64,000 nt of DNA from Liolophura sinensis (taxonomy: Eukaryota > Mollusca > Polyplacophora > Chitonida > Chitonidae), in the NCBI RefSeq assembly GCF_032854445.1, contig NC_088301.1, forward strand, positions 9,048,281 through 9,112,280, in the 5' to 3' direction. Position 1 is the first letter of the stretch. Each line of letters opens with the position of its first letter. The translations under genes and the position numbers were made by a program. The notes beneath the pieces are model-generated. The model searched no databases, was not told the origin of the DNA, and was given only the letters and a program-made list of their open reading frames with translations. Positions 35,937-62,709 of this stretch are shown here, piece by piece.

Positions 35937-36105
35937 TCACAGACGGGATACGTGTGACTCCGGCTCGCCGTCCGGTAACGCCTTCGTGGATCCGTTCATG
36001 GCATCCTTCGCGGTCATCTTCCGCAGGTCGTGCCGAGACAAGTGTTCTATGATTCCAGCCCCGTATCCGTCCCCTAACACATTAATCGCCGTTCGACAGC
36101 GGGCC
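35937..36105 (-). CDS. SLC1 copy A exon 8 (TM8 and C-terminus)
   Basis: It encodes [30 protein letters not shown] and a short polar tail, then TGA. The acceptor attag/GG makes the residue before Arg an Ala, not the usual Asp. Confidence 0.93.
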
Positions 36106-39100
36106 CTAATTTAGGTACAAAAACAAACCATACTGAACGATTGAAACTTTAAATTTCTGCACAAAGCAATTTAGTTCTAATGGCTAAATTATTGACGGTA
36201 TACGAATGTACGGAAATGGCTGTGTGACAGAAACGGTAATATAGGATAGTCCTAATCCTAAAGCTGTACACAGTTTTACTCCTGTAGGATGTATGAATTT
36301 ACAATAGAAATGAACAGTAGGTCTTAATATTAAGATTTCAAGAAAATCCCACACAGAACCAAAATGATTGCCAGACTGAAACGCAATCTTTGTACTAAAA
36401 GGCAAAGCCTAAATAACCATTGGAAAGTGCCTCTCTGTATTTTACCTCTGTACATACGAATGCAGAGAAATCACTTTATACCAGAAAGTGAATAGTACAT
36501 GCCTTATTATTAAACTTTTCATAAATGTTATGTCAAAGGTGTGTGTAGTAGTATTTACATGTCTGTGCGGTATAAGGATGTGCAGTAATGACTTTACAGC
36601 AGAGAAATAAATAGCAAACCTCAATATCAAAATTTTGATGAGAGTAACGCAGTCCAGTGTAGTACGAAAGGCAATGTAAATATTTGTTTAGGCAGAGGTC
36701 GTCTTAGTTGCTCGTCGTGTATACCGTATACTTACAAGAACCAGTCCACAGCCAAAAGGGTGCTGATGTCTTCCGTAGGCAGGCCCATGGAGGTCAGTAT
36801 CATGATCATGTAGACAACACCGGCTCCAGGAATCCCAGCCGCACCCATGGCTATGGACAGAGCCAGGATGCTGTGGACAGAAAATACGAGTTGAATGAAA
36901 GATAACAATACGCACAAGTTCATTTTAGAGGTTTAGAAAATCAGCCCATTCGTAAGTCTTGTGAAGGGTGCCAAAAAGAAACGCGTGGATTAATTTCCAG
37001 ATGATAATTATTCTGGTGTTGATCAAATCCGGATAATTAGCCTAATTTTTTCAGCCAAGTTATACAAAATCAGAAAGCCAGAAATCATAAAGTAAGTCAC
37101 CCGGTCGCAAGCGTATATACCTTTACATTGGAATATAGCATCAGCAACATGTGACACAGGTAAACATTTCCTTTTTTGGAGAGATTATTTACATATTCAA
37201 CCAGGTGTGTCCGGTTTACTGATGGACGATATGGAAGCACCCAAAGTGCGGGACACCTGACAGATCTCCTCACTTTAATCTGCAGTCGTCGAACTAGCAG
37301 GAACTTGAGTTGATCTTGGAACTGGATTTGAGGAGAGGACAAGGCTTTGTGCGCCCGAGTTAGCGAGGTCATCTTCCTTGTACCCTATTGACGTATCAGC
37401 CATGAGTAAGGTTCTGTGACTGAGATAGCGAGGTCATCTTCGCCCTGGACAGGTATGAGTTGTGAACAACGCTTTGTGTGAGTGACTTAGCGAGGTTTTC
37501 TTCCTTGTACCCTAATGACGTATCAACCATGGACGAGGGAAGGTTAAAATCGTCTTGAAACTTGATGGAACAATGTCAAAAGTTTAGTTGGACTTAGTTG
37601 TCAAATTCGACAAGTGGCCATATAATAGGACGTCTATTTCATAAGCCACGCCGAGAAGGTGCGATGTCAAATGTACAATCGCATGTCCTGTTTCCATTTG
37701 ACTAGCCGAATTCGACAGGTTAAACTCGACAATCGCATCATGTCATCGTTTAACTGAATTGAATATTGTTTTCATTTCACTTCATCGTTCAGATGTAAAC
37801 AACAAACAATCACTTCCAACTGGCAATAATGACAAGGCGAAACCTGCAAATTTTACTTCAAAACGTTGACGCAACGTCATAATCAACGTTTTAGAATTGT
37901 TTACAGCGCGAATCTTTTAACGACTTTCGATTAAGTGAGAGTATCAGTGCAGCTGCCATTAAAAAAAACGTCATAACAGAAACCACCCAAAATTTCGAGT
38001 GACGTCATCTGCTGTTGCTTTTTGACCACGACAACCGTCCTCAAAAATCCAGTGTAAGACGCAGTCGTCATTGATGAATGTCATTGCTTTCATTCGAGCA
38101 GATGCATGTACACGCCTTGATAATTAACATTCAGCGGTAGCGTTGTTGGCCCGGTGCCAGGATAACGAGTTTCATAGACGAGGCCTTCGTTAATGTGCCA
38201 GGTCACGTACTGTCAATATAAAACTTAATATAACATAGCATATTATATAGCCGTGCATGTGAAAGAGAAAACCTCGCAAAGGCTGTGGTATACAGTGACC
38301 TGTTCACGAGCGCTGTGGGTCTGTGAAGAGACGGGCCGCTTACTCGATTTCTGTCTATGTTTTTGTCATCAGCACGATTAGCCATCCTAGGTTGTGTTCA
38401 GAGCAGGTAGAGATTTTTCACAACATGTCTCGCCCTACATTCGTACAATCGTAATTTAATGTGAAGAATGTGTGTAAAAAAAATTGAAACGTTAACTGAA
38501 ATTTTGATTTATTTGCTTGCTGGTAAACGTCACACCAAAGAATATTTCATTTCCAGGTGGAGGAAACTGGAGTTACCAGCATAAACTATCGACCTTTGGC
38601 AAGTTAATGGCGCACATTTCCTCATGTGACGTTCACATATAAACACACCTTTTGGTGGATCAAAAGTGGTCTTCACCAAGCGTCAGCTGCACCCACGGCC
38701 ACACAAGCCTCGTCCACTGCTTATTGTCATGAAGGTCATTGTTGTTGATGTTTTTTTGATTCTGGTTAATGGTAGCCCGTGTCCCAAATTCTCTGTCTCA
38801 CGGACGCTCAAACTGGCCTTTTCCTGTATGTGAGCCTAACGTATATGATTTATGTGAAGCATGAGAACGTTACGACCTATCAGCGATAACCCATTCACAC
38901 AAAGGCTGCTTCCAACGCCCCACGAGTTGGTCACGATCATCCTGGGCCCAGTTATTCAAAAATGTATTAGCTAAAACTGGTATTAAGTCAACTTATATCT
39001 TTAAGAATTTAACAAAAATGTGTAGTCAGTGTAGTTATATAACGATCAAGTATATAACAGCATCGGATTTCGTTTATATTTAATACGTATATACTCTTAT

Positions 39101-42100
39101 ATCATTAACTTTAGGCTCAGTACTGAATTGAAGACTTGGCTTTAAAGAAGAAGAAAACATAAAAATGATGCCAAAATCAGGTGAACGAACGTCAAAACTT
39201 ATTTGCAAATATGGCCTTTAATATATTTTAGTTTTTTTTTTTCAGGAGAAAAGGGTATTTGAACATAGTTTGTATGGTGGGTATTTGGGACCACCTTTTT
39301 GTATTAATAATTGTTGCATAATAATGTTCTAAATAACGATGTGATGCATGTGTAACAAATTTATTTGAAAATATATTTTGTGGAAAGTGATTCGACATTC
39401 AGCTTAAATCTGATATTAAGTATTAGGACATTTTTGAACAAACGAGCCCTGGCTTGTGACATGCCTGCTTCAGTACAGGTTTTGTCGCAGCTACTGTCCG
39501 CTTTTCACTGAAGTTATTTGTATCCACCCATTATTTAGTCAGGCCAGTACTTTATAAACTTTCTCCACCGACAATTTCGACCATGTAAATATAAGATAAT
39601 TGTTCAGAGAGTAACTGTTCAGTCAAGACGGAATATTTAATTTTTCGGTAAGTGTATGCCATTAATTCTAACATTATGTTCTTCTGGTAAATATGGTTCT
39701 GAATACGCTGAGTATACAATGCCATCACCTCGTCTGACCCGGTATTTCTGACACATCTACGAGGAACGGGCATGCAATGCTTAGCAAGTTTCTTTTTCTA
39801 AATGAAGACTGTTGTGCTTACATATACGAAGGTCGTGATTAAAAGACAGGCCAAAGGTTATGTTTACATATTTCTCCCACAAAGCTCTACTCATGTACAT
39901 TCTTTTTAAGACACCTTATACAACTAAGCTCTATATGGTCCTCTTTTCCTTACTGGCTAAGTGCCAGCATAAAAACCGTAGCGAATTTCGATTTATGTCC
40001 ACACGTTTTGTCAATGCTCCTTTAAAAGTGTGCACCAAACACAATACAAGACGAGTGTAAACAGCACGTTTGCTCAAAAAATGCCCCCTGGAGTAACCCA
40101 CTTGCAGAAGAGTATATACATATATACACACATATATATAAGCTTGAAAATGTCCCATATATAGTTGTGCCATGTCATAAACCGAGAATACGAGGTGGTC
40201 CTACATGGATTGTTTACATAATGGCGTGCTGAGGCCGTTCACAATCATTTTATAGAAAATCTTTGTGACCATTCTATGCACGATCTTGAGATTTTCAGTC
40301 CATAAAATATTAGGAGAAGGGCTAAAAAGGCATAAGTTTCAGAAAAGAACATTTTTGACGATATTTCATAACTTTGCAGGTTTCAACATAAGCTGGGAAT
40401 ACATGTACACGCATCAAAACGCTTTAGTTTTAGGTTTGCAGCAGCCTGCGGATGGTCGTGGGTTTCCTCCGGGCTCGGTTTCCTCCCACCATAATGCTGG
40501 CCACCGTCGTAAAAGTGAAATATTCGTGAGTACGGCGTTAAACACCAATCAAGTAAATAAATAAAATAAATCTTTAGTCCTAGGGATACATTTTCTGAAT
40601 GGTGTTCTTTAAGAATAGGTTAACTATCAAAATCCTCGATTTTCATACCTAGTTTCTAACTCGGTCAACAAGATCATTGCATTTTCATCTCCGACAAGGA
40701 GCTCTATAAACCATATATAAACCTGTCGGTCAGTCAAATCCTGGACACCCCATCTTTTAGCATGGGCCATTTGGTCAACTATTTCATTTCTTTTCTGTTC
40801 ACTTAGCACTAAAAGAGTTGCCTGTTGAAAGACGATATCAACGTTTAGCTATGTGTTTGTATAGAGAGTTAAATTGAATTTTCGCTTGTTTGCTGGCAAT
40901 GTTAGTGTACCTGATAGTCACCAGCTGTCCAACCGACAATGGAACTCCGTTCAGCTGAGCTACAAAGATGGCCATCATGGTGAAATAGAGGCAGGTGCCG
41001 TCCATGTTGACAGTGGCCCCTACAGACGCTATCAGCTTGGTCACTCGCGGGTCCACTCCATTCTTCTCTTCCAGACACTTGATGGTCAAAGGCAGAGTGG
41101 CGCTACTGTAACGTCAGAACAGAAATACCTTCTTCGTGTGAGTCACTCATCAGTGATATGTCCAAAAGAAATTGAAATCAGCGCACATTCAACACTTCAC
41201 ATATATTCTTTAAGGAGATATTTGGCTTTCCATCTGTCCACATCGAACAGCATGGGCTGTACATTTTTGTACTTTGATTCTATACTACAGCTGCTTCTTT
41301 ATGAGTTTTCAAACTTTCAAGCGCCAACCTATATTTGCATGCTAACGTTTTCCTAAACAAATAAATCCTCTAAAAGATAATTGGTACGAAAGCCCCAAAA
41401 TCACTTGTAATTTATATATCTACATGCACATTTGTTCTCTAAGCAATAAAATAAAAAAAGGAAAAACAACATGGAAAGAAATGTTAAAAAAATCTAAACT
41501 GGGTCTAAATCTGACCTGGATTCGGATCCAAAGGCAAAGACCATGGCTGGAAACATGGCTGGTAGGAACCGCAGAGGATTTTTGCGGACAAAAATCAGGT
41601 AAATGAGTGAGAGCACGACGAAACCATGTATGACAAGGCCTGTTACAACCGTCACGGCGAAAATACCCAAATCCTTGAAGGTTTTTGCCGGGTCATCCAT
41701 TTCCGCCAACTTTGCAGCGATGAGGAAAGCGATACCAACAGGAGAATACCTTAAAAACACAAGTTATGGACTTCTGCAATAAAGGCATGATGCCCTGGAC
41801 TATCTCGTAATGCATGAAATTTAACTGTAAAAACGTTTAGTCGATATTCAGAAATTTTCTATTTGAAACGGTTTAAACAAAATTGCTAGTCCGTTAGCAA
41901 TAGTAGCTGCCTAAGCTTAGCCTTTAGACTTTCTTTGAAACGGGCCCCAGGGCTCTGTCTGGCTTCCTGTACCTATAAACTTGATATGTTGATATTTGTT
42001 ATAATCTTCGTATAACAGAAATACATGTGTTCCTGACTGTGGCGCAAAAACATCAGTCTAATGAAAATTTTTTTTTTACAGTTTATATAGCCCATTAGCC

Positions 42101-45100
42101 GATGTACATAATGTTACAAGTTTAACATAATTAGATGTTTCTCACCAGATAAATATGGAGACCAGTTTGAAACTAACGGCTCTCAGAGCTTTGAAGAAAC
42201 TTAAAAATGGCTTAGCCTCGTTTCCAGCAGCGGAAGTGACGCAGCCGAAGACGATGGAGCTGACAACTAAGCCGATCATATTAATGCCATTCACTTTCTC
42301 TATCACCAGCTTCTTCACGCCTTCCTCTGCTGATTCGTCTGAAACAATAAAGTCACAAGTGATTTAAACTGATTTAACACAGTAAGTTAATACTGCCAGT
42401 TTTCCTGCATGCATTTGTCGCCATAACATGCAGTGAGTAGGTCGCGACCAAATGGGTACAGATGCTCGAGTTCAAGTCCAGCTCATGCTGGCTTCTTCTC
42501 CGGCCGTACGTGGGAATGTCTGTTAGCAGCCTGCGGATGGTAGTGGTTTTACCCCGGGCTCTGCACGGTTTCCTCCCACCATAATGCATACGTATACGTC
42601 AAATATTCTTGAGTACGGCGTAAATATCAATCAAATAAATAAATAAATTCAATTGCACTGGACAGGGAAATTGTAGCTCCTCCCCCTCTTATAGTGAGTG
42701 AGGACTTGATGATACTGGAGAGGACGCCTATAATGTTCAATGAAGACCACCTGTCCTCCTATAATGTAGTGTGCATATCTGAAGTTACACGTGGGAATGT
42801 CAGTATCTTGCCAACTGTCCGTGGTCTACTCCGTGTCATGCAGTCCCGTTTTCTCCGCCCATAAAACTGATCGCAACTGTGTAAATGAAACTTTCTTGAG
42901 TATGGCTTTAAACAACTGGTCAACTGGCTACAGGCTAAAAGGTTACATTTACAAGTTTGAATAATCTGACTCGAAGAATTTGTTTATTCACGAGTTATCT
43001 ATAATACAAATATGAATTCTCACCGGAAGTATTCTTTAAAGCTGACATGATGGTTTCTAAAGCAGAAATGTTGGAAGCAGTCACATTGTCAGAGGGTTTG
43101 ATAATCTCTGTCACCTCCCTTGTCTTTTTCTAAGGAAACAAAAAGCATATTCAGACTATAAAATCATAATAAAATGTTCCTTTTCACATCCAGACCTTAT
43201 GCAATATTTGTATATAACACTGTGAGCTAAGCTAAGACTAGTTAATTCACGCAAATGATATTTTAGGCGAGATGTCAAATCATCCCACTTATATGCGACA
43301 ACCGTGGGGTGTTTGTATGTAACCCCATCTGATCGAACAGCGAACTATAGTAACCAAGGTTTGGATTTGAACTCACGGCCTCTGTGGTCCTAAAATCATG
43401 TTATTATCAAATAATGTACACTGATTTCATGATCAAGCAGACCACTAAGGGCTAGAAAAAACAGCTGTTTGGTATCAGCGGAAAATACGCATTTACAATA
43501 GCTGGTTGGGATCAGGGGAAAATACGCATTCACAATAGCTGGTTGGGATCAGGAGAAAATACACATTCGCATGAGTGAATGGTGCTTTAGTTCTAAGCAT
43601 ACTATCGAACTATTTCCCAGAATTGTTGGCCATTACTTACCGACTGAAAGCACACTTCAACTAGGTTGTCGGGGACCATATTTCTGCAAAAGACAATTTC
43701 CGTTAATCTTTCATAGAGTAATGTCATTCGTGGTGTAATATTTAATATTTTTTATATATTTTTATAATTTATATTTTGTCACTATGTAAACGATGTTTAA
43801 AAACCGTTTAAGCAGCTTGTTTTGTTTACATTATACACACTATGTACAATGTAATAATATATACTTTATTTGGAGGCAAATTTGAAAGGTTGACCGCATA
43901 AACCTTAATATGAAACAAGATCATGCAGCAACTCAGTACCGGTGTTCACATTGATTGACAACGCTATAAACAAATCCCAAAAATATGGAGTAAAACGAAA
44001 GTTTTTGAAGTCATATTCAGCAAACCACTTCATTATCTGATAATACCAAAGGCAATATAATCATGTAACATATCAATTAAAACAAATCAAAAGTTTATAC
44101 ACAACTTTCCTTGTCATAAGGCACTTTCAACTTGCTACAGCTTATAGTCCCAGCAATTTTACAGCACATGACACATTTTTATAGTTTTATCCTGAAAGGC
44201 GGAGGCGTGGTTGCGATAGGGGAGTGGATGGAGGGGGGTCTTAACAATTCTAGGGTGCATTTATACTTTCTATGGATTTTCAAACAAGTGCTTAGGAGGC
44301 CACAGGTAGACTGGAGATTTGGGTCAAAAAGCGACCAGCGCAAATCCAGTAGAATTTTTGCTATTATTTTAGAATAGCCCAAATAATTTTCCATTGCACA
44401 AAATATCAATCTGGTCTGTGCACGTGTTACCGTTCAAATTAGGCACTAAAATTCTCAACATTTATAAAACAATCTCCGGTGCACCAGTTAAGTTCATATT
44501 ATTTCTTTATGGTGCACCGTTATAATCAGTGCGATTCATTGTTTGCTTTGGGCTTTATAAGTTCTGCCTGTGTGTTTATTCTGCGGTGGACGAGTTTATG
44601 CGTTTTTATTATGTTCGACATAGACCAAGTGTTTTTGAGAGGACATGAACCAAAAAATGGCAGAATTATATGATATCTACATATATAACGTGACTGGGTT
44701 GGTTATTGTGACATACAGTCGTGTAAATACTGATGGCGCTAATCCATGTTATTCAACTTTAACGTTACAAATGCTACTACTATACATGTGTATGATTTGA
44801 GAGGAAACATCTAATTTCACCCTAACACGTAGAAAAACTATTCGCAGTACAGCGCATGCTCGTAAGTATCATGTTTAGATTCATTATAGTAAGTTTTAAG
44901 GGACGAGAAAAAAATGAAGAAAAGGACAACAGCAAGACAATGCAAAACTGTAGCTAAAATATGCGTTCTACCAGATTTTAAAATTGTTTAACTTAGAAAA
45001 ATGCAGTTAAATCTTAATATTATATGGTAAGTTTTATCGGCAATATTTTGGTGTTATGGTTCTTTCATTTTAACAGGATTTTTTCATTCATTCTTAGCAC

Positions 45101-48100
45101 AACACAGCACAATGGTCACATACAGGCATAATATTAGGCCTACATGTCTAGATTTTATAAACTATGCATTTTAGGTGAAAAGGTCCAGCGATATCACTGT
45201 AGCCAAATGTATAGCTCTTCATGTCCACCTTGGGATCGCCGTGGCAAAAGTGGTTAGCACGTCAGCGCGGCGCAATGATCCACGACTGTCTTCACAATGC
45301 GTTCACTGTGAGTTCAAGTCCAGGTCGTGCTGGCTTCCTCTTACGTCGTCCGTGGGAGATCTGTCATCAACCTGCGGATGGTCGTGAGTATCCCCCGCGC
45401 TCTGTCCGGTTTCCTCCCCAAAACGTTCTTTGAATGTTTGTTTCTTTATTACGTGTATCTTTAGGTCGGTGTTCATTGTCTTGCTCATTAATTTAGCACT
45501 TATATACGACGGTCAGATTTATAGGTGGGGATTTAAACGGCAACTAAAACTCAGAGACATCGAAAAGAATAATGCAGATTGTAATTTGTTTCCATTTCAT
45601 GATGCCACACTATAATATGTCCACCGAACACCCCTTACACGTATCTGTCGTCAACTGTGTGTAAAGCTGGACTCCGACAAGCCATCTCATTCGTCTAGAC
45701 CTATGTCATGGAGGTGTGCCAGATCAAGAATGACTTACTTTCACTGCAAGGTCATGGTTAGGTGGCCATTGACAAGTAACACCAAGATTCCAGAGAAATT
45801 CTTGCAGTAAGTGCTACCAGCCTCGAGTAAAACCAAATTTTCTCATCTCCTTTTTTCACCAAACCTGTCTTCCATTACACAAGGTCTTGCAATAGTGACC
45901 CAGCTCCGCTTAACCTTTCACCGATTGCTCCATGCTATTATCCACAGTCCAGGTTCATATTAGAATAGCAAAATTCCTCGATGGAAGATGTCCATCGTCA
46001 CAACGAGGTGCATGACGGTCATGGTGAAAACCAGTGAGAGATTACGGATTACTCGAGGTGTGTGGCACATTCTGCAAAGACACCATGGCTCTGAAACGTT
46101 ACCGTTGTCGAATTTGTTGAGTGAAAAACGATGAAAGATTCAGAGAGCACTGTGAGAATCGGGTATGGACTGGTGCTAAAGGAATTGTTGAAACGCCTCG
46201 AGTCTTCAGTGACACCTACCCATGGAAGCCTAAACGTCATATTTGAACTTGGTTATATCACTCAATAGGTCAAGGCCGGAAATAGCCATCCTGTCTTACA
46301 CTTATCTCAGTATTTCTGTTCCTTTCCCAGGTTATGTGATAAGCTAATCCGAGTTAACTTTAAACTGTGATTTTTTCACCGTGTTACAAGAGTTGTTGGC
46401 TTATCGGAACATTGCCCTCACTGAAGTGATAACCTTGTAAGTACAGGCAAGCAGTTAAGTACGTGTATGTTTCCTAAGCTCAAAACAAGACAGACGACGT
46501 ACGGGGTTATATCCGGTTTATGATAACTAGATTAGATTTAAAACCCTTGTCAGGGCAAAGGTCAACAGTGGTAAGGTCATAACGCTGCATATGTAGCCCC
46601 TATAGTTGAACATCTACATGTATAAACACGTATTAAAAGGATCGGTGTGTAAGTATTTATTTGAGCCTATCAACCCTTTTTTCTGACCAATTTGCGTCGA
46701 AAATTTTCTTTCTGAAATTCAGTTTTCCGATTAAAGAACTGCGCATAAATGGGTGCATTATGTGCGTTTTTTTATCCGGCAAATCGATATTTGAGGTACA
46801 TGACGTTTGTGAATTATTTTGGCTTTCACGATTTTATAGCAGATGGAAAGAGTTATTTTAAACATATTTGATTTATTTCATTGAATACATTGGATTAGCG
46901 TTTTACCATATATCGAGCAACGATTCCATTGCATAATACCTGTCACGAGTACGGATGGAAGAAATGGACAGAGCCAAGGGAAACAACTACATCTTTGCTT
47001 AAACCAAATGTATTTAAAAATAGTCGGATTTTACAGCTGATACTAGATTTGAAGACGCGACCTAACCGGCAAGAGCTAGTTGTCTTGTGAAAAAAAATAA
47101 AGTAAAAAACAAAGTGTTTCTCAAATGAAAGGGAACAGAAAAGTGCACCAATTAATAACTTAAAGTATTTTTGAATTTTTAGGAGTTACCACGACATTGC
47201 ATAAGAAGAATTTTCCTGAGGAGTATTTATGACCATATTTTCCCAATCCTTTTCATTTTATTTACAGCGCCTAAAATATAATCAATACTTACTCGAATGC
47301 TCCAAACGGAGTTAACTGGAGAGGATTTAATTTCATAGAAAATACGTGTTTTCAAAATTATTAGGACTTATTAGGGCTTATATAATCGTAAGTGCATATA
47401 ATCACCAGGTAAATGTGAAACGTGTTACAAGCTTTCGACCCTCTTGTCTCTTCCTCAAATTATCTTGCCACCAGGGTCAAAAGCTTGTTAAAGCTTTTAC
47501 ATTTCCTTAGTGATGCCTCGATAACATTATAATGTTTTCAAAATGCTGTTCTTACAAAGAAAGTGATGTGACGTCACACCAATTAGTAGTGGTTCGAAAA
47601 GATAACCGTATTTTATCCCACTCTAAATGTGCAGCAAAAAATAAATGAATATAGTTTTGTAAAACAGTTTGGCGCAGCGGTTTGAATAGCATGAACTTCG
47701 ATCTTCACATCGTTTATGTTAATTCACTTTAGCAAGTTTTGCTAAAAAAAACAATTCTCACATCGTAATGGTGGGAATATGCAAATGTTATCTGGCAATG
47801 AGGTCAAAAAGGTACCTACCTGAAGAGGTCCATGAAGGCGAGGCCCGGACTAGAGGACAGCGAGTATTTGTCATCTCCCCCAACAATCTGGCCACTTGTC
47901 CTCTCTCCCGGGCGGATAGTCACTGCCAAAGTAATCCCCAGTATAGACGCAAGCACGAGGGTAGCGATGTAATAGGCCAAAGCTCGAAGGCCAATCTTTC
48001 CTGAAGACCGGATGTCGATTTCGGCAGTAGAGCACAAGAGACTCGACACAACGATCGGGATAAGTAACATCTTCATGCTCTGTATAAAAAGGTCTCCCGG

Positions 48101-48328
48101 AAAACGAAGATAGACGATTTCTGGCTGGCTAAGTTTGGGGTCCATAGAATTCAAGCCTACCCCAATGGCGATCCCAACAAGTACTCCAATTAACATAAGC
48201 AACACCAGCAAATTTGACTTGATAAAGCCAACACAACAGTCTCTCGTCGCCTTCATCTTGGACGCTAATCCGTGCCTCTTTAAACGTCCACCTTCGACGA
48301 TGTCTTCCTTTGGATTGAGGGGCTCCAT
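35937..48328 (-). CDS. SLC1-family amino-acid transporter, copy A (8 coding exons)
   Basis: This is a plasma-membrane sodium-coupled transporter of the SLC1 (EAAT/ASCT) family, predicted 527 aa. Coding exons in transcript order are 47820-48328, 43641-43683, 43024-43129, 42146-42338, 41516-41749, 40911-41105, 36736-36870 and 35937-36105. All are joined in frame with GT-AG borders. Seen: TM1-3 (about 39-58, 79-99, 113-138), an extracellular loop with three N-glycosylation sequons (N199, N204, N217), HP1 with GSESSSATLP, TM7 [11 protein letters not shown]2 [11 protein letters not shown], and TM8 [16 protein letters not shown]. The usual TM7 Glu is Phe403 and the usual TM8 substrate-amino Asp is Ala473, while Arg476, Asn480 and Asp484 are kept. 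Classical glutamate transport with proton/potassium coupling is therefore doubtful; substrate unknown. The 525-aa neighbour is a tandem paralogue with identical exon phases. Confidence 0.92.
36736..36870 (-). CDS. SLC1 copy A exon 7 (HP2)
   Basis: It encodes [20 protein letters not shown] and [17 protein letters not shown], the second re-entrant hairpin and the start of TM8. Confidence 0.95.
37335..37535 (+). repeat. Tandem repeat, about 64-bp unit, three diverged copies
   Basis: tagcgaggtcatcttc recurs at 37361 and 37426, and as tagcgaggttttcttc at 37488. The first and third copies also share cttgtaccctattgacgtat/ cttgtaccctaatgacgtat. It is in intron 6 of copy A. Confidence 0.85.
38943..39450. 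mobile_element. MITE-like element with 'gggccc...caaaaatgt' inverted repeats
   Basis: The left end gggcccagttattcaaaaat pairs with the reverse complement of the right end (agggctcgtttgttcaaaaa). An internal segment matches the inverted fragment at 1477-1580. It is in intron 6 of copy A. Confidence 0.55.
40436..40571 (+). repeat. SINE family 1, 3' half
   Basis: gcagcctgcggatggtcgtg, tttcctcccaccataatgct and ggcgttaaacaccaatcaag plus tail. It is about 55 bp from the orphan ORF. Confidence 0.88.
40627..40826 (-). other. Coding-like orphan ORF in intron 6 of SLC1 copy A
   Basis: A minus-strand frame from the acceptor-like tttcaacag (about 40827) reads [20 protein letters not shown], then [20 protein letters not shown] and [20 protein letters not shown] to a stop. 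Composition is that of a soluble helical protein, unlike the AT-rich shadow frames around it. I do not recognise the family. It could be a captured exon, a gene fragment or chance. Confidence 0.35.
40911..41105 (-). CDS. SLC1 copy A exon 6 (HP1 serines, TM7)
   Basis: It encodes [39 protein letters not shown] and [16 protein letters not shown]. Phe403 sits where EAATs have Glu (NMDGTALYE). Confidence 0.95.
41516..41749 (-). CDS. SLC1 copy A exon 5 (TM5-TM6, start of HP1)
   Basis: It encodes [19 protein letters not shown] through [16 protein letters not shown] to FGSES. Acceptor tttttaag, donor tccag/gtcaga in phase 2. Same 234-bp length as in copy B. Confidence 0.93.
42146..42338 (-). CDS. 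SLC1 copy A exon 4 (TM4 region)
   Basis: It encodes [20 protein letters not shown] and [18 protein letters not shown], matching the VNGVNALGLVVFS and AIMRLVAVIMW regions of EAATs. Confidence 0.93.
42467..42648 (+). repeat. SINE family 1, head truncated
   Basis: gagttcaagtccagctcatg, ccggccgtacgtgggaatgt and cctcccaccataatgc, with tail. It is in intron 3 of copy A. Confidence 0.88.
42790..42930 (+). repeat. SINE family 1 relative (variant body)
   Basis: acgtgggaatgtcagtatct, ctccgcccataaaactgatc and tttcttgagtatggctttaa, with the 'cccataaaactg' variant core. Confidence 0.5.
43024..43129 (-). CDS. SLC1 copy A exon 3 (glycosylated loop)
   Basis: It begins [10 protein letters not shown] and carries NVT, NIS and NTS sequons in a fast-evolving loop. 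Ends in phase 1. Confidence 0.85.
43461..43573 (+). repeat. Tandem repeat, 37-bp unit, three copies
   Basis: gctggttgggatcaggggaa and aatacgcattcacaata recur every 37 bases from 43464. It is in intron 2 of copy A, about 65 bp from exon 2. Confidence 0.92.
43641..43683 (-). CDS. SLC1 copy A exon 2 (43-bp micro-exon)
   Basis: It encodes [15 protein letters not shown], the conserved FP-NLVEACF region that starts the large extracellular loop. The same 43-bp exon exists in copy B. Confidence 0.9.
44330..44465 (+). repeat. Diverged dispersed repeat, copy 2
   Basis: accagcgcaaatccag, tagaatttttgc and gtgcacgtgttaccgttcaa correspond to 33568-33680. It is in intron 1 of copy A. Confidence 0.35.
45232..45420 (+). 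repeat. SINE family 1, tail missing
   Basis: It has a head (gggatcgccgtggcaaaagt, ggttagcacgtcagcgcg), gtgagttcaagtccaggtcg and ctgcggatggtcgtgagtat, then stops at ggtttcctccc. Confidence 0.85.
45421..47819 (-). other. SLC1 copy A intron 1, proximal part
   Basis: No exon or clear repeat recognised. Confidence 0.4.
47820..48328 (-). CDS. SLC1 copy A exon 1 (residues 1-170, TM1-TM3)
   Basis: It starts [14 protein letters not shown], has a basic cytoplasmic N-terminus, three hydrophobic segments and the family stretch [20 protein letters not shown]. The donor is cttcag/gtaggt, phase 2. Confidence 0.92.
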
Positions 48329-49682: not shown

Positions 49683-49751
49683 GAGTAGCCGCTGCCGTAT
49701 ATGTGAAACATTATTGAATACAACTTCAAACACCAATCAAATAAATAAATA
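49683..49751 (+). repeat. SINE family 1 tail fragment
   Basis: gccgctgccgtatatgtgaa and cttcaaacaccaatcaaata followed by aataaataca. Confidence 0.65.
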
Positions 49752-53500: not shown

Positions 53501-53506
53501 TTTATT
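53501..53506 (-). promoter_or_regulatory. Candidate poly(A) signal for SLC1 copy B
   Basis: tttatt on the plus strand is AATAAA on the minus strand, about 790 bases after the copy B stop; it is the nearest perfect hexamer I noticed. Confidence 0.35.
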
Positions 53507-53507
53507 G

Positions 53508-53600
53508 TTCAATACTGATTACATAGTTCAGCATGAGAACACCAGCCGTGAGGCCAAACATGCCTACGTACACCTCGAAGTCTCCAAAGGTGAAACATGT
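53508..53600 (-). other. Possible orphan transmembrane exon
   Basis: A minus-strand frame reads FTFGDFEVYVGMFGLTAGVL and then MLNYV. This spacing (aromatic, Asp, aromatic, Val, small/hydrophobic run) resembles the first transmembrane segment of SLC5 sodium/solute symporters. A GT donor-like gtaatc follows NY. It is isolated and overlaps the inner side of an inverted repeat, so it may be a gene fragment or coincidence. Confidence 0.2.
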
Positions 53601-54294
53601 ATAGTATTGGCGGTGATGTAAAGCAAGCGTAGAGAACGCTGCACATGCGCTGTAAGGAGTATGATGTAAGTATAACTGTCAAAAATATAATGCAATTTTT
53701 GTTGATATGAATTCTTCGATCTCGTGTCTCATGGTGTAACGGAGGTACAAATGACATCTCTTTCTTCTAGGAACTTCTAAAATTCACAAAGATTCAACTC
53801 CTGAATTTACTCCATCCTTAGCCTTCTCTGAATAACTCTTTCAATTTTCAGACTCCCATGTTATGTCTACCATTTGTGACAGGTCGCAAGGTACATTAGG
53901 ACTTTTTTAACCTTTAACGTTAAAAGAGTTCCAACTCGAACCTATAGTAATCTCTCACTGAATCCGATAAATTCCTGTATGTCTCGTGCTTTTTGTGACA
54001 ATTGTGGAATTGGAGCTGAGTATAACGGTGTATATTCCATAATTAGTTAGGCGGAGAGTCTAATAGGTGCATTGAGGTGGCAATAAACCATATACCTGTA
54101 AGTTATGAACACCTTCTCTCCACCAGGGTCCCATCTAGCAAAACAGTGGCAACAAGCACATGGTGTTCCGTCCATAGCAATACAGAGTGAAGACATGTAT
54201 CCCCATGGTAAATGCGTTTGACGTGTAGCACTATGGCAGGATCCCATAAAAGTTTCAAATCTCTGCTTCGGTATCCCATCTGGAGAGGTTTTCG

Positions 54295-54469
54295 TCAAAC
54301 GCGTGCTGTTCCCTGTTCTGCTTCTCCCTCATACAAGTCCTGTTCCGAGTTAGCCGTCAAAATTATCTCCCTTTCCGCCATTTTCTTTAGATCATGTCGG
54401 GAGAAATGTTCAATAACAGCTGCTCCAATTCCATCTCCTAATATGTTGATGGAGGTCCGGCAGCGCGCT
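54295..54469 (-). CDS. SLC1 copy B exon 8 (TM8 and C-terminus)
   Basis: It encodes [30 protein letters not shown] and an acidic tail ([11 protein letters not shown]), then TGA. The acceptor ttgtag/AG fixes Ala before Arg. Confidence 0.93.
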
Positions 54470-57400
54470 CTACAATAGGCAGTTAAAACACCATAGATAT
54501 GACGATCTTGTTTAAAAAGTGTTGCATTTATGGGTCAGTATTAGACTTGTAAAGTCTTTAATTGCATTCTGATGATGGTTCTGATCGAGGAGGTCGATGG
54601 AGAAAAAACCAATACCGATTAAAATCCTAACTCGTTCCAAGCAAGAAACGGTTTTACATGGTTCCATTTAGGTGAAACTGGAAGGCCCGTGCAGGATTAA
54701 GAGATATGAAATTTCTTAAAATCTATGCGTCGAAACAGACATTTATCAGCCGTCAACCAACAAGAACATCGCAGGTCAATAATCGCAAGGCCAATTCCCA
54801 AAACGACGTATAACAAAAACCACAATAGAAATCAGAAAGTATATGAAGTACAAAAATAGGACGGAAGAATGCAAAGAGAAGCAGTCAACAGTTTTCAACA
54901 CGCAAGGTTCTAGGCGACTGAATGAAAGCAGTATTCAAATCGTGCTACACTATAAGTTGTCGATAAAAGCTACGAAATACGTACAGAAACCAGTCGACAG
55001 CGAGCAGAGTGCTGATGTCGTCCGTGGGCAGCCCCATGGAGGTGAGGATCATAATCATGTAGATCACTCCGGTCCCCGGAACTCCGGCTGCTCCCATCGC
55101 GATCGACAGGGATAGGATACTGTGGAGAGGAATGTTACGTAAAAGCAGGATGATGCATGAAACGTTTTTTTAAAGGATATAGCCTAAAATACAGAACTGC
55201 AAGAAACTTTCTCAACTTTGTGGGACGTAGTATGGGTTTGAACCAGTTACCCTGAAGCCACGACTAGTGCCCAGCCTGGAAATAAAGTAGCTTGCATCGA
55301 TGAGGTCAAGGCTGATAGCTGTCAAATCGACCCTGAGGAAGAGTCTGAATGAGGGCATTGAGGTGGTACCTCGTTCCCAGTGACCTCATCGATGACGTCA
55401 AGGCTGATAGCTGTCAAAACGACTCAGAGGGAGAGCCGGAATGAGGGCATTGAGGTGGTACCTCCCAGTGAGTTCATGTATGTCATTTTCAAAAGTTTGC
55501 GACCATTAATGAAATACATTCCTTAAATACAGGGGTAAATTGAGTTTTTGCCATAACTTTATCCAATGCCCTTAAAACCAAAATATTTGTTCTCGAGCTC
55601 CGTTTCAAGTATCCTTTATTTCTAGTTTTGTTATTGACCGCTTAATTTGATGTACGTGTGCCTTAGGCACATTTAGAACAACGTACGTGACGTAACAGCT
55701 ATAGGCTGGAGATCTGTATTTCTGAAAGCTAAGGTAGAAATCTATGCGTCGAGACAATTGTATGCCAGCCGTCAACCAAGATGGATGCTCCTCAATTTTC
55801 TCAAAGCCAATTCCCAAAATTACTTTTTACCCAAACCATCAAAGAATGAAGAAGGCATATGAAGTACGAAATTAGGATATGTTCAAGGCGAATGAGTGAA
55901 ATTTTTGTTCAAATCGTGCACCATCTCAGTTGCGCTTTGATTGCAACTGTTCACACATCATGACGCAGAGCATCAGAGATTTTCGATGCTCTGCCCATAT
56001 TCACTTACAAGAGAATAATACGCATTGTATAAATCAAGAAACTTAGAGTGAAGGCGTTTGACGGAATAACCTTGACACACTAGTTTTTGCAGTAATAACT
56101 TATGACACTGGTTGAACTCGTCACACAACACTCAGGATCTAACAAATGCTACCTGGCGAGATGTGTACACGCTATGTGCAGGACCTTCAGTATACTGCTG
56201 CACCAGTAGGGATAATTTACAGTCAAAATGAAATTATCACTCTTATTGTAAAGTCTGCAAGAAAGGAAACTGCTTTGGTCTTTGTAGTAATATTAATGCA
56301 GAGAACATGTACGAGCTGGGGAATCTGTGGTTTTCTTTAAATAAAGCGAAGGTGGGTAAATATCTTTTACAGCGTTTGTTATATATGGGTTGCTTCAAGC
56401 TAGCAGAAAGATGACAGAAACACATCTAAGGTCTAACAGCGCTGTCGAACTTCCCAATGTTCAGACGGGCATAACTAGGTGTCAAGAGAGACGGGAAAGA
56501 GCAAGCGTTCGGTGCATTTTACCTTATAGTGACCAGCTGCCCAGCCGACAGGGGAATTCCGTTAAACTGTGCTATAAAGATGGCCATCATGGTGAAATAG
56601 AGACAGGTGCCGTCCATATTGACAGTGGCCCCTATAGACGCTATCAGCTTGGTCACTCGCGGGTCCACTCCATTCTTTTCCTCGAGACACTTAATCGTAA
56701 CTGGCAGAGTGGCACTACTGTGAAGAAGATGTAGATGTAGTATAAGAACGGTGTCCTGTAGAAAATGGCGAAGGGTTACCCCAGACTATATATTTTATAC
56801 TGGAATAACAGGATATCTAAATGAATAGGTCCGCGTGACTATGTCTGGTTTGTTGGCACAAACGGTCGTAAAAATATAAAAAATTTTCATACGTGTAATC
56901 CAGAATAGTCGATTTTCTCGAAATTTGGCGGTTAATGTTAATTATAAGATGTACGTCATGGGGAAAATGCTCCTGAGAAAGCTATGTGTTTTCAAAACTT
57001 CCCACTGGGCTCTACCTGATAAGGAAAAGAGACAAAAGCAGATTTGAGCGAGTATTCCATGTGAATACGGGTGTATTACATTCTGGGGCACCTTGATGCA
57101 ACGCCCAAAAACGTGTATTGGCCGGGACAGCCCATAGTGTAACACGCATGGATGGAAAGTGCTCTCCATTACATAATAATGCAACACTATATAGGTAGCA
57201 ACTGCTGCTCATAATGAAATAATACGGGTAGCAAGTGCTACCCATAGTGAAATAATTGTTATGTTACGGGATCTTATTAGACTGTCCGTGTCCTGGGAAA
57301 CTTCGTAGTGGATGTAATAACGGCCTCATGGAAAGAGAACAAATGCAGTCGTATTTGTTTCAAACAGTTTGACTTGTGAGTGGGTTGAATGGAGTGCCGA

Positions 57401-60400
57401 CGTTCTACTTATTCTATATTTGTAGTTTTGAAAATCAGGATAAAACGTTTAAAATTATTGTGGAGAGTATAGAAAATTGTAGTCATTTTTGAACGTTCAA
57501 AAATAATTTTCAAAATCAGACAAAAGCGCATCTTATCTAATAAAAAAACCATAACACATGTTTAAAGCTTACCTACTCTCAGATCCAAAAGCGAAGAGCA
57601 TAGCTGGTACCATACCAACTAAGAACTTGAGGGGATTTTTGCGTAGAAAAACCAGATATAGCAGAGACAAAACAATAAAGCCGTGAATAAATAACCCGAC
57701 CAGCACAGTCACAGTAAAAATGGCCAGATCTTTGAAGGTTTTTGTTGGGTCGTCCATCTCCGCTAACTTGGATGCAATCAGAAAGGCGATTCCAACAGGC
57801 GAGTACCTGTTAAAACGCACACAACCGCGGCATGAAGAACAAATCGCATAAATAATAGCTGTCTATAGGTTAGTGTGTTCGTATGGTTTTCGCCGAGAGC
57901 AAGAATATTTCACTTCAGTTCTAAGTTGGCAGTGACTTTCTTAGGTAAATGAATCGGAGCTCCAGGAATAAACCTCCGATCTTTAGTAAATAACTGACTA
58001 ACTTTCCTACAAGGCGGTTTGATTTAAAAATCGTGTTTTAATAATCTGCATTGGTCAAATAAAGTGTCTCATATTCCAAATGCAATCTTTTGTAAAATTT
58101 GAGATATAGCTAAAGTACAACGGGGTTATTACTCGAATGTAAATAGATGTAGTTTTCTTCAAAACATACCATTAATATGTGGAGTATAATGGAGTACACG
58201 GAAATCAGTGACTTTTTTGTGTAAGAGCTGTCTAGAATATGTTGATTCGTGTGGAGTGCGTTGCTGACTATGTTGCAATGAAGTACAGAGTGATACAGAT
58301 TGCAATTGTAACTTGCAACTTGTAAATTGTGTGAAGTTTAATTAATTTCTTATTAGACGAGGTTAACTGTTGGCATCAAAAGAATCATTATGGAAGTGCA
58401 GTTATACATACAAAATACAATGCATCTATTGTTGATATGTCTCTTGTTAAAATGGCAGGCTATGTCCAGCGTCCAAGCCAGTCATTCAGTCTGAGATATA
58501 AGTGGAAATGTGGAATTACTCACCAGATAAAAATTGCCACGAGCTTGAAACTGACAACTCTCAGAGCCTTAAAGAAGTCTAAGAAAGGCTTGGCCTCGTT
58601 TCCAGAAGCGGAAGTGACGCAGCCAAACAGTATGGAAGCAACAACCAGGCCCATCATGTTGATACCATCAACTTTTTCCACGATCAGTTTTATTTGTCCT
58701 TCATTCTTTGCATCTTCGTCTGAAATTTCAAATATCTTTAAATCAACCTGAATTTACAGCTTGTCAATGATATCGCCTGAATATGCTAATTTTGTTGTGT
58801 GAGCGATGATGGATATTTTGATGTTAAACCATATATATCTTGACATGTATATTCAACATACTGGTAGTCTATACAATTTTTATGCTGTATCAAGTATCAA
58901 TGGATTCTGTGCGCTAGAATAATCTGCTACAATAACAATGCCTAAATTTAACAGCTCAAGGCAGTCACTAAATCGTAGCACGGGGGGGGGGGGTCGTTTT
59001 CCCCGTGCGCACGTAGCATTACCTATACACGTATTTGCCGTGGAAACCAATACGCGGTGTGATAGCTATGTGCACGTTTAGCAATAAGTGTACTTTGTGA
59101 AAGGGGACAAAAAGGACTAGAAAATTTTTTGTTTCATTTTTTTCAAAATGTATTCTAAAATTTTTTTGCACAATGTTTTGATGAACACGAAGCACCCAAC
59201 AGACAAATATGACAAACACCTCTGCCAGCTTCTCCCATATCCTGAAAACATGACCTACGTCGTCACATGGGGTCACTGTGAGTTCGTGTTCAGCTCAAGC
59301 TGGCTTCTCCGTACATGGAGAAGTCTGCCAGCAACTTGCGGATGGTCGTAGGTTTCGCCCGTACTCTGGTGGGTTTTCTACCACCAGAATGCTGGCCGCC
59401 GGTATATAAGATAAATATTCTAGAGAACGGTGTAAATCACAAATCAAATAAATAAAATAATACTTCGTACCAAGGAGCTAAAACTTTTAATGACATTTTT
59501 AAAAAATTCTTTTATGTCCGACACGTTTGTAGAGAAAGGTGCAGTCTACATGCAGTGGTATGGCACGTGTACAGGCTAAGTGTCATATACATACCAGCCA
59601 TGATTAAAATCCCTGTGGTATGGCATAGATCCACTTTAGATTTTGACGATGTATGCATTTTTTATGTTGAAGTTTCTTATTATACAAAAATTTAAGAAAA
59701 ACGATGTGTTCGTTTATCAAGCTGCAAAGAAGCCAGATGCAATCGCCTCTAAATTGATTGAAGTTGACTGAAAACAATTTTATATTTTTTATACGCAGGT
59801 CGAACATAGGAAAATCGACAGATTATCTTCTTCAGTCACAAGCATGGAGATCATATATACAGTAAGAGAGAAATAATACATAATGCGTAGTGGACACCAG
59901 CTTCTTCATTTAGTTTTATAGATTTATTTTAATTAGGTGTAAATATCTATAAAACAACAACAACAACAACAAAAAACGGACAGAAAAATTCTCGTTATAC
60001 ATACAGCTGGATGGAAAGAAGGCAGTGTCTTATAATTGTTTTAGTTTTACTGGAATTCCACGGTTGTTGCTGTTTTTCTCCAAAAATCGTGTTTATTTGC
60101 AAATCCCAAACTGGGTTAGATCACAGAACTGATAGTGAGTACGTCAGAGCGCTGATTTTCTCTTGTGCAACTGCGGACTAAATTGCCTATTCACCTATAG
60201 TAGGCAACAGATCTTCTGACCGTCCAGTTTTACAGTAGAGTTGTTGTTGGTGCCATATGTTCTGGTCTGCTGGATTACCATGGCTGTGTTCTGTGCTCAT
60301 GCTGGGCCTTATTATCACCACATCGTACTGAAGATGAAAGCAGCTGACATATTGGACAAAATGCGTGTCTTACCACTGATATTTTTCACAGCGTTCAAAA

Positions 60401-62709
60401 CCGAGGAAAAAGATGACGAGTTGCCCATAGTCGTCGTTCCATCGCCTGTCACTTCTCTAGTCTTCTTCTGCATGAAAAGTTGAATATTGAATAAATAAGC
60501 ATATTGCCTTTTATGACAAGCTTGCCCAGAGTTCTGAGGTACCAATCTGCTATCACAATGGATATGTGGACAACACTGTGTCAGTTATTACTATGAAAAA
60601 CTGCCATTCTTTGACCTAATTCTGCTTAAAGTATGCTTCTGTGAACATTTACAGGGAGTTGTAAAGACAAGGTAGATTCCTTTCAAGGTTGTTATCTTAC
60701 TTCACTAACTTTCATCGTGAATAGATTATGGCAATAATCGCATTTAAATGAAGCGCTAAAATAAAACTTAACTGAGGTACGTGTAAATTAATATACAAGA
60801 ACCCGGTTTTCGATATTACGTGTGACCATTTGCCACTATCACACTGTCCTTGCAGATCTGGTTTTATTGTCCTGGCTATATTTTACTCAGTGTACTCGGA
60901 TAGTTTGGACAGCGTGTCTGTTGCTTCTCATGTAGTGAAACTGCGCTAGATTATTCGGATAGCAATGCTAATTAGAGACACGCTTGGTTGATCTAGGGTT
61001 GATTCATTGATGAACTTTGTCTAGAGGATTGACAAACTAAGTCAACAAACAGCTGATTTTACCTCTGTAACTCTCATTTGTATGTATTAGCGTTGAGAAA
61101 AAAACTAGTTAAACTATAACGTCTTTATTTGGCAGACTTAAAGGACTCGTGTTTTATAAACAAATAACATAACGCATGTAATTCGATATTCGAAGTGCGT
61201 TTTGTGTATATGTAAGTCATGACGTCAGGTGTTCATGCAGACAGTGACTTGATAGCTGACTGTGGTGGTGTCACGTACAGAGCTCAATACTGTGATTGGT
61301 TAGTCAGAATACTACTGGCAGCCTCTTCCCAATAAAAAAATTGTAGTTTAATGCAGGTTGTAAAGAATGAATGAATGATTATGGCTTAACGCCACATCGG
61401 CAATATTTCAGCCATATCTTGGCAAAGGTTGTAACGATATCGTACAGCTTAAATCTCAGCACACAATGGAACAACGTGTATCAAAGCGCTTACCGATTTG
61501 AAGCAAACTTCAACAAGGTTGTCCGGGACCATGTTCCTGTGAAATATAATTCAAGTTGGTGTTATGATGCAGTCTTTCGATATATACAGGATGGACGTAC
61601 TTCTCACTTGTAGAGTAACCTTGTCTCTGTAATGCATGTACGCTAATATTTAATGACACTGGTGATATTGTCTTTATCTGTATATCTATATACTGAACCA
61701 TTGATGTTATATGTTCGCACCCAGTCGTCGCTGGCCCCCTTCCACCCACACATAAACCAGATGTCGACATATTGCTGAAATATTGGTGTGTACAACGTAG
61801 CTTCAAATAACCAACCAAATAAATAAACATGATCCTGTAGAGTAAGTTATATGTGTTTTGAAGAAATGCATGTATTTCTTACACAATTATGCATATTTAC
61901 TAAAGACTGTGGCGGATTAAAGCGAGAGGGCAGTAGGGAGAGGCCAGACTTTGTCTAAAATGAGACAATAGCATTTTAACGGACAAACCAACTGCAAACT
62001 ATCAAGCGAATTCTGGGTCCGAACATACACTGAGTGTTAAAAATTGGTTGTGAGTCGTGCTGAGACTTATTTTAATTACCGAACAGACCGTTTGGCCTGC
62101 CACCACGTGACGTATACGCAAGAAAATAAATACTACTATGCTTCACCGAAGACAAGTGCTACTTAAAAAGGTAACATGCACAAATTGTAACAGCAATGTT
62201 TACCTGAAAAGATCCATGAAGGCGAGGCCTGGATTTGAGGATGAGGAGGGGATGTCTGGGACCAAGCTTGGCCGCCCACTTGTCCTATCCCCCGGACGAA
62301 CTGTCACTACTAGAATTACCCCTAAGACAGACGCAAGCACGAGGGTAGAGATGTAATAGGCCGAGGCCCGAAGACCAATCTTTCCTGAAGACCGGATGTC
62401 GATTTCGGCCGTAGCGCACAAGAGACTTGACACAACGATCGGGATTAACAGCATCTTCATACTCTGTAGGAAAAGCTCCCCGGGAAAACGAAGGTAGACA
62501 ATCTCTGGCTGGCTAAGTTTGGGGTCTTTGGAGTTTAGGCCTAATCCAATGGCGACCCCAACAAGAACTCCAACCAACATAAGCAACACCAGCAAGTTGG
62601 ACTTCAGGAAACCGACGAAACATTTTCGTGTGACAGACTTGGGCAGCCATTTGCGATCCCTTTCCTCTGCGTTCCTAACAAGGTCATCCTTCGGATTAAG
62701 GGGCTCCAT
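54295..62709 (-). CDS. SLC1-family amino-acid transporter, copy B (8 coding exons)
   Basis: Tandem paralogue of the downstream SLC1 gene, predicted 525 aa. Coding exons in transcript order are 62204-62709, 61494-61536, 60374-60467, 58524-58719, 57573-57806, 56523-56717, 54985-55119 and 54295-54469. Exon number and phases equal those of copy A, and exons 2, 5, 6 and 7 have identical lengths. Seen: [11 protein letters not shown] start, TM1-3, a loop with sequons N199 and N212, HP1 GSESSSATLP, TM7 [11 protein letters not shown]2 [13 protein letters not shown]8 [16 protein letters not shown]. Phe399 and Ala469 replace the Glu and Asp of glutamate transporters, as in copy A. The copies differ most in the N-terminal cytoplasmic segment, the glycosylated loop and the C-terminal tail, where this copy is acidic and Glu/Gln-rich. 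Substrate unknown. Confidence 0.92.
54985..55119 (-). CDS. SLC1 copy B exon 7 (HP2)
   Basis: It encodes [20 protein letters not shown] and [17 protein letters not shown]; donor ttct/gtacgt. Confidence 0.95.
55296..55480 (+). repeat. Tandem duplication, 92-bp unit, two copies
   Basis: atcgatgaggtcaaggctga at 55296 recurs as atcgatgacgtcaaggctga at 55388; both continue to gagggcattgaggtggtacc. It is in intron 6 of copy B. Confidence 0.93.
56523..56717 (-). CDS. SLC1 copy B exon 6 (HP1 serines, TM7)
   Basis: It encodes [39 protein letters not shown] and [16 protein letters not shown]. The Phe for Glu change is shared with copy A. Confidence 0.95.
57573..57806 (-). CDS. SLC1 copy B exon 5 (TM5-TM6, start of HP1)
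   Basis: It encodes [19 protein letters not shown] through [16 protein letters not shown] to FGSES, with donor agtag/gtaagc. Confidence 0.94.
57880..57945 (-). repeat. SINE family 1 fragment, minus strand
   Basis: ggttttcgccgagagcaaga and atatttcactt are a short remnant of the reverse-complemented 3' end. Confidence 0.4.
58524..58719 (-). CDS. SLC1 copy B exon 4 (TM4 region)
   Basis: It encodes [20 protein letters not shown] and [18 protein letters not shown]. One codon longer than in copy A. Confidence 0.93.
58982..58992 (+). repeat. Poly-G run
   Basis: About 11 consecutive G residues in intron 3 of copy B; length may vary or be misread. Confidence 0.9.
59271..59460 (+). repeat. SINE family 1, head truncated
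   Basis: cactgtgagttcgtgttcag, tgcggatggtcgtaggtttc and agaatgctggccgccggtat, with a tail caaataaataaaat. It is in intron 3 of copy B. Confidence 0.85.
60374..60467 (-). CDS. SLC1 copy B exon 3 (glycosylated loop)
   Basis: It starts [13 protein letters not shown], has NSS and NIS sequons and is four codons shorter than in copy A. Only the first seven residues are shared without gaps. Confidence 0.85.
61494..61536 (-). CDS. SLC1 copy B exon 2 (43-bp micro-exon)
   Basis: It encodes [15 protein letters not shown], one residue different from copy A. Acceptor atttcacag, donor tcg/gtaagc. Confidence 0.92.
61715..61830 (+). repeat. Dispersed repeat 3' end (third family)
   Basis: gtcgctggcccccttccacc, gacatattgctgaaatattg and aaccaaccaaataaataaac. 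A related stretch, gattatggcttaacgccaca with caatatttcagccatatctt, lies at 61376-61420. Confidence 0.45.
62204..62709 (-). CDS. SLC1 copy B exon 1 (residues 1-169, TM1-TM3)
   Basis: It starts [16 protein letters not shown] and contains [21 protein letters not shown] good acceptor (tttttattttcaag) ends 16 bases before the ATG, so this exon probably starts at 62725 and an untranslated exon lies upstream. Confidence 0.92.

Follow-up and report, generated by a model that had tools for sequence, protein, structure and literature searches.

The window considered here is a 64,000-nucleotide stretch of the genome of the chiton Liolophura sinensis (assembly GCF_032854445.1, contig NC_088301.1, positions 9,048,281 to 9,112,280), and it carries on its minus strand two intact genes of the SLC1 transporter family, which we call copies A and B. 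Neither has an internal stop. Both belong to a group of at least six chiton genes in which an aspartate of transmembrane segment 8 (TM8; D444 in EAAT3 numbering, used throughout) and a glutamate of TM7 (E374) are absent, the TM8 arginine R447 is retained, and an acid stands at position 331 of hairpin 1 (HP1).

Two window genes and their chiton relatives

Gene models were derived from genomic DNA by a purpose-written, splice-aware alignment of protein to DNA. Copy A (C7_a) extends from an ATG at 48328 to a stop at 35939-35937 and encodes 493 amino acids in seven exons (48328-47820, 43683-43637, 42338-42146, 41749-41516, 41105-40911, 36870-36736 and 36105-35940), among which the boundary between the small loop exon (43683-43637) and the exon after it is the least certain. 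Copy B (C7_b) extends from an ATG at 62709 to a stop at 54297-54295 and encodes 499 amino acids, likewise in seven exons (62709-62204, 61536-61494, 58735-58524, 57806-57573, 56717-56523, 55119-54985 and 54469-54298), of which the exon starting at 58735 has an uncertain acceptor. The PF00375 profile covers the full length of both proteins (profile positions 1-386 of 387) with scores of 345.1 bits for copy A and 339.0 bits for copy B, against a cut-off of 27.9.

The junction between exons 7 and 8 is a phase 2 GT-AG junction in both copies, with a split Leu codon followed directly by an Ala codon. In copy A exon 7 ends ...GACTGGTTCTT|GTAAGT and exon 8 begins ...TTAG|G GCC CGC TGT CGA (split Leu TT|G); in copy B the corresponding ends are ...GACTGGTTTCT|GTACGT and ...GTAG|A GCG CGC TGC CGG (split Leu CT|A). 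The same phase 2 junction yields Leu-Asp in four canonical chiton EAAT paralogues. The codons for residues 331, 374 and 444 of the window copies each lie entirely inside an exon. An earlier note on this DNA had read NMDGTCLYF in TM7 and DWFLARCRT in TM8 of both copies, and the gene models give exactly these motifs, the second split as DWFL|ARCRT. The coordinates given in that note, 35937-62709, mark the outer limits of the two genes taken together. The note had also allowed that another exon 7/8 junction might restore the Asp. Alternative joins were enumerated in the six related genes, with GT or GC donors taken as far as 60 bases beyond exon 7 and AG acceptors from an interval that opens 400 bases ahead of exon 8 and closes 60 bases into it. 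None of the 22 in-frame joins in this range places Asp at that position; TM8 spacing is preserved by the modelled join alone in each gene. Nor did a pattern search of the same six genes reveal a further exon for TM7 or TM8b.

A Pfam SDF search of the whole genome returned 78 exon-level matches, which were grouped by hand into at least 17 SLC1 loci on seven contigs. The earlier note had called the window genes duplicated; more than one copy is indeed present, but two is an undercount, as at least six genes have the signature in common: C7_a, C7_b, C7_c, C7_d, a gene on contig C4, and C11_2 (four in tandem, one dispersed, one divergent). C7_c and C7_d follow the window copies in a tandem array on contig C7 that reaches 9.147 Mb. 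Tiny loop exons in the C4 and C11_2 models are probably aligner artefacts, the C11_2 model has no N-terminus, and that of C7_d ends before the C-terminus.

The six genes are monophyletic with support of 100/100 in both of our trees, and they fall inside the metazoan side (20 rows, 100/100 in the second tree). Five sequences (b_L109, b_L110, b_L113, b_L117 and b_L120) were left out of the trees, and the second also omits b_L123, which has a very long branch. In the first tree the clade lies nearest to two "Q" paralogues, C7e_1 and C7e_2, which are located ~0.7 Mb from the clade array on the same contig; the support of this branch (83/82) is not strong. A scan of the viral_contigs set with the HP1-TM7 exon gave 243 pattern matches, none of them a relative.

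The clade is under purifying selection. The dN/dS ratio (Nei-Gojobori) of copy A against the four close copies is 0.11-0.13 at dS of 1.2-1.4, and among those four copies themselves it is 0.24-0.39 at dS of 0.19-0.28; dS is saturated in comparisons with C11_2. Heterozygosity in an assembly of the chiton Liolophura japonica is given as 1.24% (PMC11068029), and since the dS values far exceed this, allelic duplication in the assembly does not account for the copies. The third tandem copy, C7_c (C7:9119500-9131600), lacks an ATG at the aligned start and has H445, L374 and A370; this gene may be relaxing or losing function.

Residues of the substrate and coupling sites

Twenty-five EAAT3 ligand residues from a published table (PMC3958442) fall at their own numbers in our alignment, and the earlier note's assignment of the altered columns to E374 and D444 is thereby borne out. 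Phe replaces E374 (codon TTC at 40982..40984 in copy A and at 56594..56596 in copy B, these and the following on the minus strand), Ala replaces D444 (GCC at 36102..36104; GCG at 54466..54468), and Arg447 is retained (CGA at 36093..36095; CGG at 54457..54459). Beyond the residues listed in that note, which overlooked the first of these, a Glu stands as a new acid at S331 in HP1 (GAA at 41521..41523; GAG at 57578..57580), and Leu replaces T102, the equivalent of GltPh S93 in the Na3 site (CTC at 47957..47959; CTC at 62341..62343).

These states hold across the clade with little variation. D444 is absent from all six genes (Ala in five, Thr in one), as is E374 (Phe in five, Leu in one), and an acid occupies position 331 in every gene (Glu in five, Asp in one), the acid having persisted in the C4 gene, through a Glu-to-Asp change, and in the divergent C11_2. 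Position 445 is Arg in 5/6 and His in 1/6, position 102 is Leu in 5/6 and Phe in 1/6, and position 370 is Thr in four, Ala in one and Ile in one. N366, D368, D440, R447, T448, N451 and D455 are each conserved in 6/6, a Thr-Met pair occupies positions 375-376 in 6/6, and Gly is found in 6/6 at HP2 position 413, which is Gln in EAAT3. All six genes retain the Na1-site residues and most of those of the Na3 site, T102 having been lost. The arginine, TM8 asparagine and last aspartate were rightly described earlier as retained (R447, N451, D455), but the statement that HP1 and HP2 are also retained fails at key places, namely the Glu at S331 (EAAT1 S363, GltPh R276) and the Gly at Q413.

We compared these columns with nine reference rows (the four canonical chiton EAATs, human EAAT1, EAAT3 and ASCT2, and the two Q paralogues) and with two bacterial sets. 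The first comprises 81 DctA sequences, i.e., E. coli DctA and the best 80 of 549 relatives, all close to it; the second comprises 47 SDF proteins, made up of 18 of 19 earlier loci (a fragment was dropped) and 29 new best-scoring proteins among the matches listed, and overlaps the DctA set in a few genomes. All nine reference rows have D444 and either Ser or Ala at 331. An acid at 331 was found in 6/6 clade genes, compared to 0/47 bacterial SDF proteins, 0/81 DctA sequences and 0/9 reference rows. Position 331 lies within the D444-R445-S331 cluster, so that an acid has in effect changed place inside this cluster. The clade resembles human EAAT1 and EAAT3 in family, in R445 (5/6), R447, T448 and N451, and in the Na1-site residues, and resembles the chiton EAATs in the phase of the exon 7/8 junction, but is altered at T102, S331, E374, Q413 and D444. 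Human ASCT2 also lacks Glu374, but it retains D444 and has lost R447 to Cys, the reverse of the clade; this is the ASCT pattern that the earlier note had described.

The closest counterpart to the pattern among bacteria is DctA. All 81 DctA sequences have S331, L374, T375, M376, S444, E445, R447 and A448. In the second set D444 is present in 37 proteins and replaced by Ser in the other ten, all of DctA type (53%–95% identity to E. coli DctA) with E445, R447, A448 and no acid at 374; two further, distant proteins with DctA as best match (30%–38%) retain D444. Outside the clade, and among the proteins examined here (in three chiton "Y" genes, described below, the last exon was not found), loss of D444 with R447 retained occurs only in DctA. 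The clade also resembles DctA in having no acid at 374, in the Thr-Met pair at 375-376 (present in 81/81 DctA sequences, but only in 6/10 DctA-type proteins of the second set), and in an acid that adjoins the lost Asp, which is E445 in DctA and Glu or Asp331 in the chiton. It differs in having Glu or Asp at 331, Ala or Thr at 444, Arg (5/6) or His (1/6) at 445, T448 and D455, whereas DctA has S331, S444, E445, A448 and N455. The chiton proteins are not themselves DctA. Membership is excluded by the tree, by the NCBIfam cut-offs for DctA (NF002461/NF009587; copy B scores 140.4 bits, against a cut-off of 513), and by the absence of the S444-E445-x-R447-A448 pattern. A shared origin of the clade with DctA was rejected both by the tree and by an approximately unbiased (AU) test of the two as one clade (p-AU 1.0e-5), a grouping that was named after the first tree had been seen. 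Since the tree places the clade among animal SLC1 proteins and not with DctA, its loss of D444 looks independent of DctA's.

Likely substrate and rival explanations

From these states we infer substrate, coupling and a role for Glu331 as follows. With moderate confidence, we propose that the clade descends from a glutamate transporter of animals and that its most likely substrates are dicarboxylates without a primary alpha-amino group (succinate, malate, fumarate or alpha-ketoglutarate). Transport would be coupled to Na+ and lack the proton symport and K+ antiport of the EAATs, which take up glutamate together with 3 Na+ and 1 H+ in exchange for 1 K+. Dicarboxylates are favoured because the clade fits the pattern of D444 lost and R447 kept that is seen in DctA and in the mosquito proteins CuqDCT and AeaDCT, both of them groups of dicarboxylate carriers, and the absence of E374 and D444 predicts the absence of EAAT-type H+ and K+ coupling. 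The earlier note had suggested a substrate without an alpha-amino group, an idea that is supported here; its view that the residue combination fits neither the EAAT nor the ASCT class overlooked this third class, in which DctA (S444 in 81/81) and CuqDCT (D444N) keep R447 and transport dicarboxylates.

The mosquito proteins provide the nearest functional precedent. Like the chiton clade, they are animal SLC1 proteins derived from EAATs in which D444 has been neutralised and R447 and N451 retained. CuqDCT, from Culex quinquefasciatus (D444N, T448A), has reported Km values of 51 uM for succinate, 11 uM for malate and 20 uM for alpha-ketoglutarate, compared to 1085 uM for glutamate, and does not respond to K+ (PMC3737229). 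The N428D change by itself is enough to reverse the selectivity and bring back glutamate affinity, and a response to K+ is seen in the N428D/C440S double mutant (PMC3737229). Human EAAT3 showed no transport currents with D444S or D444N as its only change; for dicarboxylates to be transported, D444S had to be combined with T448A (PMC3737229). The chiton clade differs from CuqDCT in having Ala or Thr rather than Asn at 444, in keeping T448 in 6/6 genes, and in its six copies, and the mosquito function has been measured whereas that of the chiton proteins is predicted. The loss of E374 and the acid at 331 in the clade may be further differences from CuqDCT, which is known here through PMC3737229.

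In the mechanism that we envisage, R447 and N451 would clamp the two carboxylates of the substrate, as has been proposed for the EAATs and for the mosquito dicarboxylate transporter; R447 is reported to bind the distal carboxylate in EAATs (PMC3737229). Replacement of D444 by Ala or Thr would remove the residue for amino-group binding and K+ counter-transport, and replacement of E374 by Phe or Leu would remove the proposed proton site. The new HP1 acid at 331 may pair with R445, taking the place of the D444-R445 salt bridge near the inner gate and keeping the local charge balance. We read Glu331 as a probable partner of R445 before any other role because an acid likewise neighbours the lost Asp in DctA. 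Simulations of EAAT3 indicate that R445 moves in between S331 and D444 when the inner side opens; they also assign one of three candidate K+ sites to S331, D444 and T448, where the amino group of the substrate is bound (PMC3958442). In GltPh, the Asp equivalent to D444 is a ligand both of that amino group and of a Tl+ ion located there (PMC4051121).

Several observations weigh against a dicarboxylate carrier. T448 is retained throughout the clade, and because human EAAT3 needed T448A as well as D444S (PMC3737229), this counts against a simple equivalence with the mosquito route. Unlike the Asn or Ser for which a hydrogen bond has been proposed, Ala444 has no donor group, the acid gained at 331 would put extra negative charge near the substrate site, and the association of states at 331 and 444 within the clade is a single evolutionary event. 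Changes are not enriched in the pocket as a whole (4/22 pocket columns versus 28/118 others, p-value 0.78; 2/15 versus 14/47 with the nine reference rows, p-value 0.31). A global resemblance to DctA was also sought and is not clearly supported: of 51 changed columns, three match DctA only and five match GltP only (one and seven, respectively, of 21 in the control pair C7e_1/C7e_2). NCBIfam scores for DctA versus GltP likewise fail to set the clade (140 versus 134 bits for copy B, 117 versus 102 for C11_2) apart from the canonical paralogue C14 (160 versus 151); C7e_3 scores 153 versus 164.

The main rival keeps the substrate class and moves the acid. Here the carboxylate would have passed from D444 in TM8 to Glu331 in HP1, where it would bind an amino or imino group, and the proteins would be transporters of acidic (or N-substituted) amino acids with altered coupling, which we consider possible though doubtful. 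Such an acid swap would mirror the arginine swap between GltPh (R276, M395) and the EAATs (S331 and R445 in EAAT3, S363 and R477 in EAAT1; PMC3958442), the same 331-444-445 cluster being rearranged in both cases, there by a moving Arg and in the clade by a moving acid. It would also account for an acid at 331 that is universal in the clade and missing from all the bacterial and reference rows, and it is consistent with the backbone carbonyl at 276/331 coordinating the substrate and with the candidate cation site at S331, D444 and T448 (PMC3958442), T448 being retained in the clade. However, GltPh R276 contributes to substrate binding through that backbone carbonyl and not through its side chain (PMC3958442), and the E445 of every DctA sequence, in a dicarboxylate carrier, means that a neighbouring acid does not imply amino acid binding. 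Co-occurrence of the two changes within one clade, as a single event, also carries little statistical weight. A bolder form of the same idea would see a third SLC1 charge layout, in which the acid responsible for recognising the amino group moved from D444 to Glu331 and the EAAT Arg445 stayed, serving secondary-amine substrates with two carboxylates, for example opines, or acidic amino acids without proton or K+ coupling; we find this unlikely. Opines are made by molluscs in anaerobic metabolism, and we name them as a suggestion.

It is distinctly unlikely, in our view, that the clade has reduced carrier function and acts mainly as an anion channel, exchanger or sensor, even though EAAT3 D444C and D444E are listed as exchange-only mutants (PMC3958442). 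All six genes retain the residues of the Na1 site, most of those of the Na3 site, R447 and N451, and are under purifying selection. An acidic side chain such as Glu at the proposed anion filter should make anions less favoured, and both known natural SLC1 lineages without D444 are carriers (PMC3737229). The earlier note had raised an anion channel or sensor role, and nothing in our analysis favours either in particular. Drift in redundant, decaying duplicates would fit the state of C7_c and the dN/dS of 0.24-0.39 among the four recent copies, but it is quite improbable given that copy A, compared with the others, has a ratio of 0.11-0.13 at dS >1.1, and given the signature states in common with C11_2, whose synonymous distance is saturated. 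All six models are also free of stops, although partly by construction, as the aligner penalises them. That a wrong splice junction, an alternative exon or an assembly error conceals the Asp is scarcely credible: the models are derived from genomic DNA, but in-phase GT-AG junctions occur in six genes at different places, none of the enumerated joins restores an Asp, and no second TM8b exon turned up in the pattern search.

SLC1 carriers that lack D444 and have turned to dicarboxylates are already known; new here are the lineage, its tandem expansion, Ala or Thr at 444 with T448 kept, and the acid at 331. Among the matches listed in a search of open-licence literature, there was no report of a mollusc or chiton SLC1 protein without D444. 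A paper on oysters describes three EAATs and, in the text covered, says nothing about the residues considered here (PMC11545548); another (PMC2873418) concerns vertebrates. The clade would be the second animal case of D444 loss with R447 kept, probably independent of the first as judged from tree and taxonomy, and reached by a different route, with T448 kept, E374 lost and an acid gained at 331. Within one chiton genome there are six genes lacking D444 and further ones lacking T448 (C7e_2 and the frameshifted C7e_1, and two Y genes with Ser), which makes testable what substitutes for the Asp linking substrate class with K+ counter-transport. It also suggests a possible route for uptake of Krebs intermediates in molluscs outside SLC13.

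Other SLC1 genes and a syntaxin frame

The two Q paralogues (C7:8327403-8343415; L016 and L017) retain D444 and R447, but Gln stands at 374 and T448 is replaced by Ala or Gly; apart from two mosquitoes, eukaryotes are reported to conserve T448. C7e_1 (L016) has a frame shift within its HP1-TM7 exon and is either a pseudogene or an assembly error (HiFi coverage is given as 14x in PMC11068029). A second aberrant chiton SLC1 clade, Y, consists of five genes (support ~100/99-100 in the trees) at C3:12630893-12642195, C3:12677356-12684559 and C6:34366047-34400124 (L010-L015, L126-L128). Its NMDG motif reads SANGS or NADGS, with Ile at 374 and Glu at 440. In C3_2 and C6_1, the two members with an identified last exon, D444, R447 and N451 are retained, and positions 448 and 455 are Ser and His. 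What looks altered in this clade is therefore the Na+ sites and not the substrate site.

Among the bacterial SDF proteins, seven (L133-L135, L138, L142, L143 and L149) have human EAAT3 as the best of five queries, at 41%–44% identity. These carry Glu374 (7/7) and Arg445 (6/7), which are otherwise animal-EAAT features in this sampling. Elsewhere in the window, a single-piece long open frame on the plus strand (11445-12434) encodes a syntaxin (Pfam Syntaxin 57.6 bits, SNARE 55.9 bits) and is possibly a retrocopy.

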